Of a DNA stretch of 64,000 nt, positions 22,956 through 49,348 are shown in pieces. Numbering within the stretch: position 1 is the first letter of the stretch; every line of letters begins with the position of its first letter. Position numbers and translations under genes: made by a program. The stretch is from Geosiphon pyriformis (taxonomy: Eukaryota; Glomeromycota; Glomeromycetes; Archaeosporales; Geosiphonaceae). A model generated the notes under the pieces. The model was given only the letters and a program-made list of their open reading frames with translations, was not told where the DNA came from and ran no database searches. The DNA lies in contig JAAOMT010000303.1 of the NCBI GenBank assembly GCA_016748015.1, positions 921,748 through 985,747 on the forward strand, read 5' to 3'.

Positions 22956-22983
22956 ATCCTAACCCTAACCCTAACCCTACCCA
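22943..22983 (+). repeat. Telomere-like CCCTAA tract in the gene leader
   Basis: CCCTACCCTACC is followed by about three and a half CCCTAA units, ending 36 bases before the start codon at 23019. CCCTAA/TTAGGG is the common fungal telomere unit. Here it is interstitial and lies in the presumed 5' leader or core promoter. It could be a telobox-like regulatory site or a scar of break repair. Confidence 0.85.
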
Positions 22984-23018: not shown

Positions 23019-23597
23019 ATGGCAACAGTATCATCCTCATCACCTTTACCTTCTCATAATTCTAAAAGAACTTCGACAAATTCGAGTTCAAGAATGGAAC
23101 TTGTTGAAAATTATCACAACTCGGAAGTTTCAACGCCTGAAAAAAATAAATCATCTTCATCTAGTCCCACTTCAATTTTACGAAATCAAGAACGTTTATC
23201 AGTAGCTAGCATCTCGAATTTGATTAACCATCATGATGAATGGAAAAATCAATCAATTTCAACACAATCTTCATCTTTATCTGAAAAAGTTATCGAGAAA
23301 TTAAACAATAATGAACATAAAAAAAGAAAACAATCAGATATTCCTTCCCCTGAAGATTTTGCTGAACCAGTTCCTGATAGTTCAACAGCTGAAGCACTTC
23401 TCTCCTTATTCAAACGTCGACGTGTTTCGATATCAGAAAAAAATGGTGATGGTGATGACGATGACAATGTTAATGAAAAAAATCAAATTATTAATACTAT
23501 TGCTAATGCTAATGTTAATCATAGTAACAAAAACATTAAGAATAATAAGAATAATAACAATAATAGTATTAACAACAAAAACAAAAACAACAACAAC

Positions 23598-23628
<31 letters not shown>

Positions 23629-23653
23629 GTAATAACAAGATTCATTCTCGACT

Positions 23654-23698
<45 letters not shown>

Positions 23699-25468
23699 GG
23701 ATGATAATGATGATGATCAAATGGAAACAGATGAACTTATTCACTCAACACAACCATCTCCCGTTCCATCGACCGGATTCGATGACCCAAATCCTGTGGA
23801 TGACCCACCTTTAGAAGTTATGTCGAAACCTACTCCTACTCCTACTACTGTTACTGTTACTGCTACTACTAGTACTACAAAGATTTCAACGGCTCATTCA
23901 ATCTTTGGTGGTAACGGTCATGGTGTTATCCTTCCTCCAAGCACATTTAGCGGTAAACAGTCACGGAATAAAAAGGCTTACGTTCCACGTCCCCCAAACT
24001 CCTTCATTCTTTATCGTCAACATCATCATCCATTGATCCTTAATCAACGTCCCGGAATCAATAATTCCGAAATCTCTCGAATAATCGCCGAACATTGGCG
24101 TAAATTAGGTGATCAGGAGAAATTAGAGTGGAAACGAAAGGCTGAGGAAGCTAAAGAACATCATATGAAAGTTTATCCCGATTACAAATATCAACCAAGA
24201 CGACGAGCTGGTGCTCAGACCTCCAATTTTCGAAAAGCCGTTATTCCCTCCGCACATGGTACATCACATGAAGATTCATCTGGGAAATATTTGGACAATT
24301 TTGTGATTGAGATGAAAGGCCCTCAACACCACCAACCACAACCATCGATAAAACCACATAATCATCATAATCACAATCACCAGCATCAACATCATCATCA
24401 TTCCATTCAACTCGACGAAGATCATGCCGTTCCAAGGACAGAAATGGAAGATTTAAGGATCTCGTCAACGAAATCTCAAAGATTTATTCGACAGGTGAAC
24501 GATGTGGTCATCTTTGAAGGTGGTTCAACGGAATTGAAGAATATAGGTAAAATTTCTAAATCTATTTAGAATTCTTGCTTCAAAATTGTCACCGATCAAA
24601 TCTTTTTACCAATTCTTGAATTCTTTATCAAAATTAGCTCGTAATAAACCCACCCCAACCGAGGCTCTCAAGGCTAGATTATTACCACGTACTACATCAG
24701 GACCAGCCGCATCATCATCTCATTCTCTACCTGCCCCGCCGTCCGCTTCCGCATCCTCCTCGCAAAATTATTTTGTACATCCAACTCCCCCACCTCCATC
24801 CACTCCAACAACACCGAACCGGTTACCTTCACTAAATACCCTCATGCAATCACCCCAACAACCTACACCAGTCTCTTCAACAATATCAGCTCCTCCATCT
24901 CCGGTTCATGGTTCGACAGCTCGTGGTGCAATGATTGTTCTGGAAGGATGTGAGGATGGTTCTTCTTCCTTACAAGCAAACAAATTGCTAGAATTCTTCA
25001 AGCAAGAAGGAATCACTGCAAAACTATGGAAATTTCCTGATCATTCCACACCTTCCGGTAACGCATTAAAAGCCTATCAACAATCAGATTGTCAACCACA
25101 TCCGAAAACTCTTCATTTATTGATTGCATCTCATTGGTGGGAATTAATGTAAGTAATCTCGAATTGATTGTTTTTTTCTGAATCAAAATGTTTACCAATA
25201 AAATAACACATTTTTGAATTTTCCTTCCAGGCCAATCATGAAGGATCATCTTTTAAATGGAACCACGTTGATCGTTGATCGTTATGTTTATTCCGCGATT
25301 GCTGCTTCAGCAGCGGCAGGACTTGATCTGAATTGGTGTAAAGCCAGTTACGTGCATTTATTAAGTCCAGATCTTATATTCTTCTTGAATATTTCCGGAC
25401 TTGAAAGGGATCAATCATCTCAGCACCAGCACCAACAACAACAGCACCACCAACAACAGCAGCAACAA

Positions 25469-25499
<31 letters not shown>

Positions 25500-26013
25500 A
25501 ACAGCAACAACAACAACAACAGCAACAGCAACAAATGCAGAGAATTTCACCTACCACGGAGCCTACTTTTGATGATAATCGATCTTCGATTGAATGGCAA
25601 CGAAGAATGCAGGACGCATTTGGAAGGCTGGCAGAAGTTCATTGGAAGGTAAGAACAATCTTGAGTCTTTTTGCTTTTGATGTTTCAAAATTTAAAATTT
25701 ACACTTTTATTCTCTATACGAAAAGATTTTGGATGCGTGTGAATCAAATACCCTGGTTCACTTACAGATTGCCAAGGAATCAATAAAAGTGATTGAGCGT
25801 TGCCAAAATTGCAATACCAGTTACGGAACCAGTGGCAATAATAATATTCTACCAATCCATTATCCGAATATTGGTGGTGGTGGTGGTGACGAGAGCATGA
25901 TTTCAAACAAACTAACAGGTCGTGTATCACAACATCAATCATCACAACAAAGGTTATCACTTCCGTTCGCACATCATGAAGAATACCCAAGACCTGTTCA
26001 TGTACAGCTCTAG
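23019..26013 (+). CDS. MATA-type HMG-box protein fused to a degenerate thymidylate kinase-like domain
   Basis: Proposed exons are 23019-24546, 24638-25148, 25231-25648 and 25726-26013 (914 residues). Residues 170-208 are asparagine-rich and 212-234 aspartate-rich. The HMG box spans about 318-396 and has the MATA/Ste11 pattern: RPPNSFILYR, then EISRIIAEHW, then YPDYKYQPRR. The thymidylate kinase-like part runs from about R605 to 850: GAMIVLEG leads into a P-loop, FPD at 642-644, WELMP at 677-681, VDRYVYSAIA at 695-704, PDLIFFL, and WKILDA at 818-823. The P-loop reads GCEDGSSSL, so the catalytic lysine is gone, the arginine after FPD is H645, and the LID is replaced by a polyglutamine tract (about 744-782). 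The kinase part therefore looks inactive. The HMG part should bind DNA in the nucleus. Introns 2 and 3 are firm. Intron 1, which makes the fusion, has a weak GTAAAA donor but is exactly in phase. The alternative is two genes, the first stopping at 24569 and the second starting at 24843. Confidence 0.72.
24547..24637 (+). other. Proposed intron 1 (fusion intron) of the HMG-kinase gene
   Basis: 91 bases from GTAAAA to AAATTAG. Splicing joins the HMG frame to the frame at 24640. That frame is open and codon-like for about 200 bases before its first ATG at 24843, so those bases need an upstream exon. Without splicing the HMG frame ends at 24567-24569. Confidence 0.6.
25149..25230 (+). other. Intron 2 of the HMG-kinase gene
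   Basis: 82 bases, GTAAGT to TTCCAG. Splicing restores WELMPIM, a conserved thymidylate kinase segment. Confidence 0.9.
25649..25725 (+). other. Intron 3 of the HMG-kinase gene
   Basis: 77 bases, GTAAGA to AAAAG, phase 0. Splicing restores VHWKILDA, a conserved C-terminal thymidylate kinase segment. Confidence 0.9.
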
Positions 26014-31305: not shown

Positions 31306-32664
31306 TTAAAAGAACATGTCAAAAATATTTCCACTATGAAGACAAAGTCCAAGATTGCTTTTTGCAATTGTATTTCCCGCCTTCGCTGCTTTTAAATAAA
31401 GTTTCAATGCTTTTGCCAGATCCTCTGTTGTTCCCATTCCATTCTCATAACAAATTGCAAGATTGTATTGTGAATCTTCATATCCTGCCTCGGCTGCTTT
31501 TAAATAGAGTTTAAATGCTTTTACCAAATTTTTTGTCGTTCCTTTTCCATTAGCATAACAAAGTGCAAGATTGTATTGTGCATTTAAATCTCCCGCCTCT
31601 GCAGCTTTTGAATAGAGTTCAAATGCTTTTTCTAAATTTTTTGTCGTCCCTTTTCCATTAGCATAATAAACTGCAAGATTGAATTGTGCATTTAAATGTC
31701 CCACCTCTGCTAGTTTTGAATAGAGTTCAAATGCTTTTTCTAAATTTTTCATCGTTCCATCTCCATTAGCATAATAAACAGCAAGATTGTATTGTGCATT
31801 TAAATGTCCTGCCTCTGCAGCTTTTGAATAGAGTTCAAATGCTTTTTCTAAATTTTTTGTCGTTCCTTTTCCATTAGCATAATAAACAGCAAGATTGTAT
31901 TGTGCATTTAAATGTCCTGCCTCTGCAGCTTTTGAATAGAGTTCAAATGCTTTTTCTAAATTTTTCATCGTTCCATCTCCATTAGCATAACAAAGTGCAA
32001 GATTGTATTGTGCATTTAAATTTCCTGCCTCTGCAGCTTTTGAATAGAGTTCAAATGCTTTTTCTAAATTTTTCATCGTTCCATCTCCATTAGCATAACA
32101 AAGTGCAAGATTGAATTGTGCACTTGTATCTCCCGCCTCTGCAGCTTTTGAATAGAGTTCAAATGCTTTTTCTAAAATTTTTGTCGTTCCTTCCCCATTA
32201 GCATAACAAAGTGCAAGATTGAATTGTGCACTTGAATCTCCCGCCTCTGCAGCTTTTGAATAAAGTTCAAATGCTTTTTCTAAATTTTTGGTCGTGCCTT
32301 TTCCATTAGCATAACAAAGTCCAAGAATGTATTGTGCATTCGAATATCCCGTCTCTACAGCTTTTGAATAGAGTTCAAATGCTTTTCCTTGATCTTCTGA
32401 AGTACCAAATCCAGTATAATGACAACATCCTAAAATGAATTGTCCAAAAGTATCTATCAAACACTGTGAATTTTTCTCATTCAAGCAATCAAAAAAATCT
32501 TCAGGTGTTTTCTGATTGCGCGCAAGATATTTTTTCCCTAATTCAATGACTTTTGAATATTCACTAGCTTGAAAAATGGCCAAGTTTTCTTTTATGACAA
32601 TCAATGTTCCTTCGAGCCAGTCGAGGGGGGAAGTTGGGTTTTCAATTGAAGAGGTTGAAGACAT
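31306..32664 (-). CDS. Sel1-like repeat protein, ten repeats, no kinase domain
   Basis: A 452-residue single-exon protein starting at MSSTSSIENP. The frame is open 34 codons further up to 32766, but that text looks like leader. After an N-terminal linker of about 90 residues come ten 36-residue Sel1 (SLR) repeats and a partial eleventh, with consensus LAxxYANGxGTxxNLEKAFELYSKAAEAG. Such repeats form alpha-solenoid scaffolds for protein interactions. In these fungi Sel1 arrays are often attached to a protein kinase domain (recollection). Here the linker resembles the part between kinase and repeats and no kinase is present, so this is a kinase-less form or a derived duplicate. No signal peptide is evident. 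Composition differs from the flanking relics. Confidence 0.9.
   Translation of the reverse strand: MSSTSSIENPTSPLDWLEGTLIVIKENLAIFQASEYSKVIELGKKYLARNQKTPEDFFDCLNEKNSQCLIDTFGQFILGCCHYTGFGTSEDQGKAFELYSKAVETGYSNAQYILGLCYANGKGTTKNLEKAFELYSKAAEAGDSSAQFNLALCYANGEGTTKILEKAFELYSKAAEAGDTSAQFNLALCYANGDGTMKNLEKAFELYSKAAEAGNLNAQYNLALCYANGDGTMKNLEKAFELYSKAAEAGHLNAQYNLAVYYANGKGTTKNLEKAFELYSKAAEAGHLNAQYNLAVYYANGDGTMKNLEKAFELYSKLAEVGHLNAQFNLAVYYANGKGTTKNLEKAFELYSKAAEAGDLNAQYNLALCYANGKGTTKNLVKAFKLYLKAAEAGYEDSQYNLAICYENGMGTTEDLAKALKLYLKAAKAGNTIAKSNLGLCLHSGNIFDMFF
31410..32400 (-). repeat. 108-bp tandem repeats encoding the Sel1 array
   Basis: Units of 108 bp. Units at about 31540-32330 are nearly identical in DNA, including synonymous sites, pointing to recent unequal exchange. 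Variants alternate (GKGTTKN with GDGTMKN, ALCYANG with AVYYANG), so part of the growth may have been in two-unit blocks. Confidence 0.88.
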
Positions 32665-35242
32665 GATTTTCAAGCAACACAAATAGATTATTAAACTTTG
32701 AATCTTTTGTATGGGTAAAAAAGGATTTTCAAAAGAGTTTGTCTTCCTAATAAATAAGGATTTCAACCTCTGATCACATTCCTGAAAAGGCTAGGCCTTT
32801 ATCTAGATTGCTTAAACGGATAGAGATCGTCTGGAACTCCAATGTCATTGTCTTTATTGCCATTTTAAACCTAAAGTCGAGATTTTTTCGTGTAACAATC
32901 TAAATGCATTACCCCCAAAAATATTCTTTAAATATCAAAAAAATGTATATCACTCTCGCTTGTGTAAAGTTTATCTTGGATTTCAGTCAGTCAGTCGATA
33001 ACACCAATTTAATTAAACCATTTTTTAGAAACTGTTTTATCAATAATAAATAACATGACAAACTTCCCCTTATTATAATGATGTAACTTCAATGAGAGCG
33101 TGTGAAATAAAATTAATTGTTTTTTTTGTAGGCGATGATAAAAAAGCCAGGTTTTCGGAGTAGGCAAATTTATTATTTTGTTAGTTTCTTATTAATGCCT
33201 AAATTCTAGAAAAATTAATAAATTCAATTAAAAGTTGATAACTTTAAATTTTCAAAATAATAATAATAAGGAATTATTTTCAAATAACACAATCAGAAAT
33301 GGAATATAATTTCTTACTCACATATAGAACATGAGTTGGGCTCCAAGATTTATTTTAAATGTTAAAGAAAATAAATACATTTTTTCCAATCTTATATCTG
33401 AGAATTATCTTCAAAAATTGCTTCAAATTTGAATTATGATTTAAGCTTTTATTTTAACAATAATATTTTTTGAACAGATTTTATTTCGAGATAATATTTC
33501 AAGTACTAATACTAGTAAGAATATGGTTATATATTAAATTACTAAGTTCAACAAAATAATGTCCTTAACATAATCAAAATTTTACTGTGCAAAGTTTAAT
33601 ATATGAAAAATTCTAAAACTGCAAATATTTTTAGCAAAATATGGTTTAATGCTCAAAAAACTTTTTGGGAAAAAAACCAAAAAACATAAAGATTAATCTT
33701 TATGAATTTTTTCAAAAATATATATATTATCTATAATTAACTTTTAAATTTATTTGATTATGTTTATATTTTTTAATAGGCTTTTAATTTTTGAATTGTA
33801 TTCTAATTATTAAAATTACAAATAATTTATTTTTGTAATATATATAATTCAATATTTAACATAATAATAAATTAAAAAAATGTATTGTAATTAATAAAAT
33901 AATAAACCAAATTTTTGCATTTTTTGAAAATTAAATTTCAAAATTAAATTAATTACATACAAAAAACAAAAAATTATAAACTTGAACTTAATTTAATTCA
34001 TAACAAATTTTTTAATACAATATCTAAAAAAAATTTATATTAATTACATAATTAAATTTTTATAATTAATAATTTAAATGCTTTATTGATATTATTTTAT
34101 AAGTGTTTAATTAAATTTAAATTATATTATTATAATAATTATTAAACATTAACTAGATTTTTTGATAAAAGACTAAATATATTAAAAAATTAAGTATTGT
34201 AAAATTTTTTGATAAAGCTATTAAATTATTATTTAAAATAAAAAATTAAAGAATTATTAGTCAAAATATTTATTTTATTCTGAAATTTATTAATAAACAA
34301 TTTTTTTTTACAAAAAACAACGTAATTAAATTATTTAAAATTAAAAATTTTAATAAACTTTATTAACAAATATTCGAAAATTCAAAAAAAGTTTTTTAAA
34401 AAACTAATAATTATTTTTTTAAATAAAAAATTCAATTTTTTTTATATAATCTAAAATTTTAATAAAATATTTAACACATTTGGTTTTATAAAATACAATA
34501 AAATTAGTTAATTATAAATAAAAACTAAAACAATAATCTGTTAATTATTAAAATATTTTAATATATAATATTTTTTATTTTAAATTCTATTATTATTATT
34601 TTACTAAATTTTAAGCCAAAAAAAATAGTATAATTATTTAAATAATAATTTTTAAACAAAAAAAATAAAGAATTAATCTTAAATTAATTAAAAATTATAA
34701 TATATATATTTATTAATTTTAAATAACAAAATTAATTTTTAATTTTTAATTATAAATATTTTTAAATTTAATTAGTACTGTATTATATTATATTATTAAT
34801 AATTTTAAGTTTAATAATAATTTATAAAATTAATAATATAAAAAAAATTTTTAATTTTAATATATATATTAACAAAAACTAAATATTTTAATTTAAAACC
34901 AAGTTTAATTAATTTATAATATAACTTACAAATAAAGTTTTAATTAATTATATTTATATTAAATAAAAATTATGGTTTTTTAAAATTAATATGCAATTTT
35001 GTTTTAAGTAACCAAATTTTATTTTATAAAATATTATAAAAAAACAAATTAATTTTATAATTTTTATTATATTAAATTAATTAATTTAAAAATAATTAAT
35101 GTTTTAATACAAGTTTTAAACATAAAATTTTTAATTATATATATATTATTTATTAATAAAAATCTATTAAATTTATTTAAAAACAAAAGATTAAAAATTT
35201 TTTATAAAATATAAAAATCTTTAATTAATATAAATTATATAT
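32665..35242. other. Upstream region of the Sel1 gene, then A+T-rich spacer
   Basis: 32665-33560 has mixed composition with CpG and would hold the Sel1 promoter; no clear motif was picked. 33560-35242 is decayed A+T-rich DNA without a gene. Confidence 0.6.
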
Positions 35243-47718: not shown

Positions 47719-49348
47719 ATGGGTATGTAATATCAAATTGCGATACAAAAATTTTCAGATATCAGGGAATAAACATAATTTTGATTCTATTATGATTAGC
47801 TGCCAGTGTTAATGACTTCTTAGCAGGTACGTCTTCTATTTAAATTACCAGAATGGGTACATTAATCAAATTGAAGCTTTTCTCCATATTTCTTTTAATT
47901 CAATTTTTTTTGATAACAGGATATGTGAGTGGTGTCGCCGGACTTCTGATTGGGAACCCTCTCGATGTTCTGAAGGTATTATTTTAAAGTTCTGTCGAAT
48001 TGGGACTATCCTTCAGGTGTCTCCTCATGTGGAATCTGGGGATTTTGAGTGATCTATAGGTTCGCCTCCAAACTCAAAAAAACCCCCATAATCCAAATGG
48101 AAGTGATATAATTGTTACACCACAATTAACAGGTTTAAGAAATTTGCGGCGCATGGTACAAGTTGAAGGGGTAAAGATGGTTTTTGATCATTTATATATT
48201 CAGATGCAATTCTTGATTAAAAACTTAATCGGTATAAAGAAATTAATTTTAAATGTAGCTGGGTTCAATGTTTAAAGGAGTAGCGTCTCCAATAATTGGA
48301 CTCGCTTTCTTAAATTCCATATTATTTGTTTCATACGGGAATATCTTAAGGTTACTTCAAGGTTTCGAGAAACCAGATTCAAAAAAAGGAAATACCCTAG
48401 TACCTTCGATGTTGAATGTTTACTGGGCAGGATTTGGAGCTGGTTTAGCGTGTTTTTTTGTGAGTACACCCACCGAATTAATCAAGTGTAAAACACAAGT
48501 TATTATCCCGTTGCCTATGTCATCACAAAATCAAAATAGAGATGCAAATAGTAGCAATGATTTTTCTTGGAATATATTCAAAGATGTGCTAAGACGGCAA
48601 GGAATTAGAGGTGAGAGAGGAAGGGAATTTTCTTTTGATAACTCAGTATAACAAAACAAAAATTTTAGGCCTTTATCATGGAGGATGTATAACTATTATG
48701 AGAGATACAATAAGTTATGGTGTTTATTTTTGGTAATTATCGGGGTCAGCAAAGAGTTTTTACTCTTTAATTTTTAAATAGCACCGAATTTTTTATATTC
48801 CCTCATAGGGCCTACGAAGGATTAAAACGAATATTAGGAGAGACATCAGATAGTTCAAATACTTCTATGGTCCTCAAAACTTTGTTTGCTGGAGGAATGG
48901 CAGGAGTTTTATCTTGGGTTAGTATATACCCATTAGGTAAGAAATTTCTCTACCTAAACAAAAAACTAGTCTTTGGACCTGCAAACCTTAACTACTAAAT
49001 TAAAATTCATTTTCAAAAAAATTAGATGTAATAAAAACTCGAATTCAAACAGAATCAATCAGTACCAGTTCTACAAATTTCGTCGAAACTCACCGTTCTA
49101 TTCGAACTTCTGTAAATTATTCCTCATCCTTTGATTCACATCACGTCCATTCCTTGTCAGATGACACTAGGCCATATTCAGGAATACTTGATTGTGCACT
49201 GAGATCATATAGAGCTGAAGGAATCACCGTATTTTGTAAAGGAATTGGACCAACTGTGTTAAGAGCTTTGCCAGTGAGTGCGGTTACTTTTTATGTTTAT
49301 GAGATTATGATGAATTGGTTAAAATCTGATCATGGCATAGTACCATGA
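47719..49348 (+). CDS. Mitochondrial carrier family (SLC25) protein
   Basis: Eight exons: 47719-47722, 47800-47826, 47920-47975, 48060-48170, 48259-48610, 48669-48732, 48809-48936 and 49026-49348. All phases agree, giving 354 residues. The first exon is only ATG plus one base; the start MAASVNDFLAGYVSG fits the first helix of the fold. The three carrier signatures are P24-L-D26-V-L-K29, P137-T-E139-L-I-K142 and P246-L-D248-V-I-K251-T-R. The second carries Glu in place of Asp, as in ornithine/amino-acid and carnitine-type carriers. The protein should sit in the mitochondrial inner membrane with six helices. Loops after repeats 1 and 3 are longer than usual. The substrate is not decided by sequence; an amino-acid or carnitine-like substrate is a guess. 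Confidence 0.9.

Follow-up and report, generated by a model that had tools for sequence, protein, structure and literature searches.

A probable fusion of a MATA/SOX-class HMG box with a thymidylate kinase-like pseudoenzyme domain in Geosiphon pyriformis

Results

An HMG frame and a kinase frame lie on a single coding path

We analysed a 64,000-nucleotide stretch of Geosiphon pyriformis DNA, referred to here as the window, in which an HMG-box frame and a thymidylate kinase (TMPK)-like frame follow one another and can be read as one gene model of four exons (Table 1). The HMG frame runs open from its ATG up to the stop at 24567–24569, and the kinase frame is open from 24547, with its first ATG at 24844; of the 297 nt of open kinase frame ahead of that ATG, 206 lie 3' of intron 1. 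The coding sequence of the fused model comes to 2745 nt with the stop codon and yields 914 residues without interruption, and both Pfam domains, HMG_box and Thymidylate_kin, fall on this single path with scores above their curated cut-offs. The original prediction that the two frames are joined in phase by a 91-nt GT-AG intron was confirmed, as intron 1 links both frames. Its additional argument, that the summed exon length is divisible by three, is true of the model but has no evidential value, because in-phase sites were chosen. Three TAACCC units of telomere type stand in tandem at 22960–22977, about 40 bases 5' of the HMG start codon, and form a telo-box-like element in what is presumably the 5' leader.

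Table 1 Features of the HMG-TMPK gene model (positions in the window)
Feature	Positions	Strand	Description
HMG-TMPK gene model	23019–24546, 24638–25148, 25231–25648, 25726–26013	+	Four exons; ATG 23019
Exon 1	23019–24546	+	N-terminus with Asn and Asp runs, then MATA-type HMG box, then His-rich stretch (gene model, Pfam)
HMG box PF00505	23985–24188	+	77.6 bits (genome profile scan, C319:945732–945935)
Intron 1	24547–24637	+	GT-AG, 91 nt, 24% G+C; contains in-frame stop 24567–24569
Exon 2	24638–25148	+	Pro/Ser/Thr-rich linker, then N-terminal half of TMPK-like domain including degenerate P-loop GCEDGSSSLQ
Intron 2	25149–25230	+	82 nt, phase 2
Exon 3	25231–25648	+	DRY helix kept (VDRYVYSAIAASAAA), then polyQ tract at the expected LID place
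Intron 3	25649–25725	+	77 nt, phase 0
Exon 4	25726–26013	+	C-terminal TMPK helix (IAKESIKVIERC) and tail; stop 26011–26013

The HMG box is complete and of the MATA/SOX class

The HMG box (residues 323–390, Pfam E = 2.8e-20) is complete, spanning profile positions 2–69 of 69, and has the best score of the at least 118 matches listed in the genome. Among solved structures it resembles SOX-class boxes by sequence, and its ends carry the signatures typical of the class (RPxNxF and YPDYKYxPR), with RPPNSFILYR at the start and YPDYKYQPRR at the end in alignments to SOX-4 and SOX-11. HMG proteins bind DNA, and the class features present point to a MATA/SOX-class box, for which DNA binding and gene regulation are predicted. 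MATA/SOX-class regulators, including those of arbuscular mycorrhizal fungi, have the same start and end of the box; compared with them, the Geosiphon protein adds a domain derived from a nucleotide kinase. Previous studies describe HMG genes in arbuscular mycorrhizal fungi, with multiple SexM-like copies (PMC3834313; PMC7490403), and the term thymidylate gave no hits in the former, which deals with these HMG genes. None of the nine HMG loci that we checked, among the 117 others listed in the genome, has a TMPK-like stretch within ~1.5 kb, and the fusion of HMG box and TMPK is therefore a single case.

The TMPK-like domain has an intact frame and a degraded active site

The second half of the protein belongs to the thymidylate kinase family: the Thymidylate_kin profile matches residues 620–768 with E = 2.7e-22 and 79.8 bits against a cut-off of 27, and the best solved-structure matches of the domain, queried without the polyQ tract, come from human TMPK, with E values down to 8.6e-30. 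The genome yielded two TMPK-like genes, the fused copy and a normal copy (C398) that has an intact P-loop, GCDRAGKSTQ, and the DRY motif. Sequence identity is 40% between the fused copy and C398, 35% between the fused copy and human TMPK and 52.5% between C398 and the human enzyme. Compared by eye, intron 2 matches a C398 intron located after W-E-x-M in phase 2, and intron 3 matches one located after W-K in phase 0; two more C398 introns are missing from the fused copy. The two common positions and phases argue that the kinase part most likely goes back to a duplicated TMPK gene that carried introns. Searches of viral contigs with the kinase half and with the HMG box confirmed no relatives, and neither viral nor prokaryote contigs yielded one from fungi; one prokaryote-genome scan returned two bacterial loci, at 32% and 28% identity. 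Within the Geosiphon genome, primer AM1 matched nowhere when up to 1 mismatch was allowed, primer AML2 matched once with 1 mismatch, and the type I fatty acid synthase domain PF08354 was absent from a scan that had prokaryotes as controls (1 of 14 rings); placement in or near Glomeromycotina is probable.

We compared the active site at 28 selected positions of human TMPK (human numbering), including positions of the P-loop, the dTMP site, the DR motif and the LID arginines; the P-loop motif of active enzymes is GxxxxGK[ST]. C398 agrees with the human enzyme at 23 of the 28 positions and the fused copy at 9, with G13, S20, F42, D96, R97 and Y98 among those kept and D15, R16, G18, K19, T21, R45, F72, R76 and F105 among those changed. 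The P-loop of the fused copy fails the motif, with Ser at the position of lysine 19 and 3 of 10 residues identical to human (9 of 10 in C398); the dTMP-site residues R45, F72 and R76 are replaced by His, Ile and Trp, and the HLLFSANRWE motif retains 5 of 10 residues, all 10 being kept in C398. LID positions 142, 143 and 148–151 land in the polyQ tract, where the pairing of the alignment is arbitrary, and no RYE-like motif follows past the tract. By comparison, the DR motif (D96 and R97) is present within VDRYVYS, and 10 of the 16 DRY-helix residues are the same as in C398. The polyQ tract itself, encoded by CAG/CAA codons at 25420–25534 at the expected LID, is likely to vary in length between strains.

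Thus, with changes at the P-loop lysine, at positions 45, 72 and 76 and in the LID, neither nucleotide site looks intact. Judging from these residues, catalysis has almost certainly been lost, and the Pfam match suggests that the core of the fold is retained. The fused copy has its family membership, DRY motif and C-terminal helix in common with C398 and with human TMPK (PDB 1e2d and relatives), and it differs from these enzymes in lacking the P-loop, the dTMP-site arginines and the LID and in sitting behind an HMG box. The label of a thymidylate kinase-like pseudoenzyme, proposed in the original prediction, is supported by this pattern, in which the P-loop lysine, two dTMP-site arginines and the LID are gone.

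Intron 1 resembles other introns of the genome

As a reference for splice sites we used 28 introns of this genome. They come from five chaperonin genes, on 5 of the 10 contigs with matches, and were obtained by spliced alignment to chaperonin sequences of solved structures. The spliced aligner models GT and AG only and not the wider consensus, and a few introns of the set, whose donors are weak, may be misplaced; the lowest leave-one-out donor score is −1.22. These alignments were used in place of a splice model built by expectation-maximisation on profile hits, which was noisy and was dropped.

The reference introns are 60–115 nt long (median 82) with a mean G+C of 0.27, and intron 1 (91 nt, G+C 0.24) lies within their range. 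Its combined donor and acceptor score of 9.07 is middling, exceeding 11 of the 28 leave-one-out reference scores, while intron 2 exceeds 23 and intron 3 exceeds 17. Intron 1 is therefore an ordinary intron with nothing striking about it, and sites scoring as well make up 7.0% of the 2473 GT and 14.4% of the 2539 AG dinucleotides of the window. Among the 35 competing in-frame, stop-free GT-AG pairs (donors 24223–24569, acceptors up to 24925, 45–400 nt), the 91-nt intron ranks 7th, six others scoring higher, and it has the top score among pairs of 60–115 nt. The best-scoring pair of all combines a donor at 24520 with the same acceptor, 24637, giving an intron of 118 nt that keeps the frame, so that the fusion results from either donor, 24520 or 24547.

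Composition and codon use past intron 1 are coding-like

The linker between intron 1 and the kinase frame's first ATG (24640–24842) has a G+C content of 51%; the window median is 19%, and across the rest of the 64 kb none of 1209 windows of the same length (203 nt) is as rich. G+C falls to 24%, as in introns, precisely over 24547–24637. We also scored synonymous codon use, in bits per codon, after training on 2400 chaperonin codons: the linker scores +0.11 in the kinase frame and −0.30 and −0.45 in the other two frames, compared with +0.24 for the kinase exon and +0.18 for the HMG box. The claim that the kinase frame is open and codon-like for about 200 bases before its first ATG therefore holds. 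A search of the genome with the linker found no match besides the linker itself.

Stop-free length was rejected as proof of coding, since 308 of 2000 dinucleotide shuffles of 24640–24842 and 52 of 2000 shuffles of 24547–24842 were equally open. The high G+C and frame-specific codon use of the exon past intron 1 are the strongest sign for one gene. Together, the gene model, Pfam matches, splice sites, codons and composition support the fusion put forward in the original prediction, with the join of the two frames supported, short of proof, and we regard it as probable that the HMG box and the TMPK-like domain form one protein. Counting against the fusion are the sequence AATAAA at 24643–24648 and the possibility that a standalone kinase-like protein starts at 24844.

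Discussion

Alternatively, the HMG protein, with 516 residues, could end at 24569 and be followed by a separate pseudo-TMPK gene that begins at 24844 or in an undetected exon. The in-frame stop and the AATAAA just past intron 1 would suit this arrangement, as would the ATG at 24844, which lies upstream of the entire kinase domain and leaves it whole, and the openness of the linker is not rare in shuffled sequence. However, stop and ATG are only 274 nt apart in a window with few recognised genes, the ATG has a C at −3, the bases past intron 1 are G+C-rich and codon-like while the rest of the window is AT-rich, and the drop in G+C coincides exactly with the proposed intron. We therefore consider two genes fairly unlikely. 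That the kinase part is instead a functionless domain drifting behind the HMG exon would agree with its single occurrence, the strong loss of active-site residues and the polyQ expansion, but we judge such decay very unlikely: across 193 residues aligned to the genome's own TMPK there is neither a stop nor a frameshift, and a frame intact at 60% divergence from a real TMPK suggests selection for a protein; introns 2 and 3, with their good splice scores, and the conserved DRY helix also speak against it. An assembly artefact uniting unrelated DNA, conceivable in that a single genome is involved, is scarcely credible for a locus that lies inside a 1.09-Mb contig, with continuous frames and with second and third introns whose positions agree with a real TMPK gene.

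For the fused protein, the original prediction had offered a nucleotide-sensing or a scaffold domain attached to a DNA-binding protein, and of the two it is the scaffold that fits best. A sensing factor, though catalytically dead, would bind a nucleotide (dTMP, dTTP or another) and so alter DNA binding or the choice of partner. The retained DRY motif and F42 favour such a role, as does yeast Ixr1, an HMG-box DNA-binding protein that can control dNTP pools and is required for these pools and for RNR1 expression (PMC3088718); tying HMG proteins to nucleotide supply is thus not absurd. The abstract on Ixr1 names no kinase-like domain. Changes at the phosphate-binding lysine, at R45, F72 and R76 of the dTMP site and at all LID arginines, with polyQ in place of the LID, speak against a dTMP sensor, and we hold sensing to be distinctly unlikely. 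More speculative still is a scheme in which the dead TMPK senses the nucleotide pool and retention of intron 1 toggles between an HMG-only and a sensor form, such that thymidine supply would set how active mating- or growth-related genes are in this symbiotic fungus.

We lean towards a single gene encoding a 914-residue HMG regulator in which the dead TMPK serves as a dimerisation or docking module. TMPK enzymes are dimers, and the simplest use of the dead domain would be to bring two copies of the protein together or to bind a partner, while the HMG box would bind and bend specific DNA sites. Such a protein may have arisen when a TMPK gene was duplicated, lost catalysis and was captured behind an HMG exon. 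Where intron 1 is retained, translation would stop at 516 residues and give a protein with only the HMG box, providing a possible two-form switch. We infer that the transcript is spliced as modelled, that the product has a role in gene regulation and that its dead kinase domain binds itself or a partner. The arrangement suggests that a metabolic enzyme has found a new use in a gene regulator, as its docking or dimerisation part. There is a parallel in the GKPID of Dlg, a nucleotide monophosphate kinase that, according to PMC4718807, lost its activity and gained partner binding at the former substrate site; it derives from guanylate kinase, occurs in animals and has no HMG box, and the likeness is one of kind that need not reflect shared descent.

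If the transcript is confirmed, the locus would add to the cases in which a nucleotide monophosphate kinase became a non-catalytic component of a regulator, here with a DNA-binding domain fused directly to it, and would distinguish one protein of a large HMG family in fungi as carrying a testable partner-binding or dimerisation module. Among the open-access texts searched, none pairs MATA-HMG with thymidylate kinase, and neither the Pfam names HMG_box and Thymidylate_kin nor the terms pseudoenzyme and thymidylate kinase were found together; open-access texts that combine thymidylate kinase, HMG box or pseudoenzyme describe no fusion in their titles or the beginnings of their abstracts. Elsewhere in the window, a single open frame of 494 residues on the reverse strand (31309–32790) contains ten Sel1 repeat matches, and two stretches within 48259–49345 that match the mitochondrial carrier family are probably exons of one gene.
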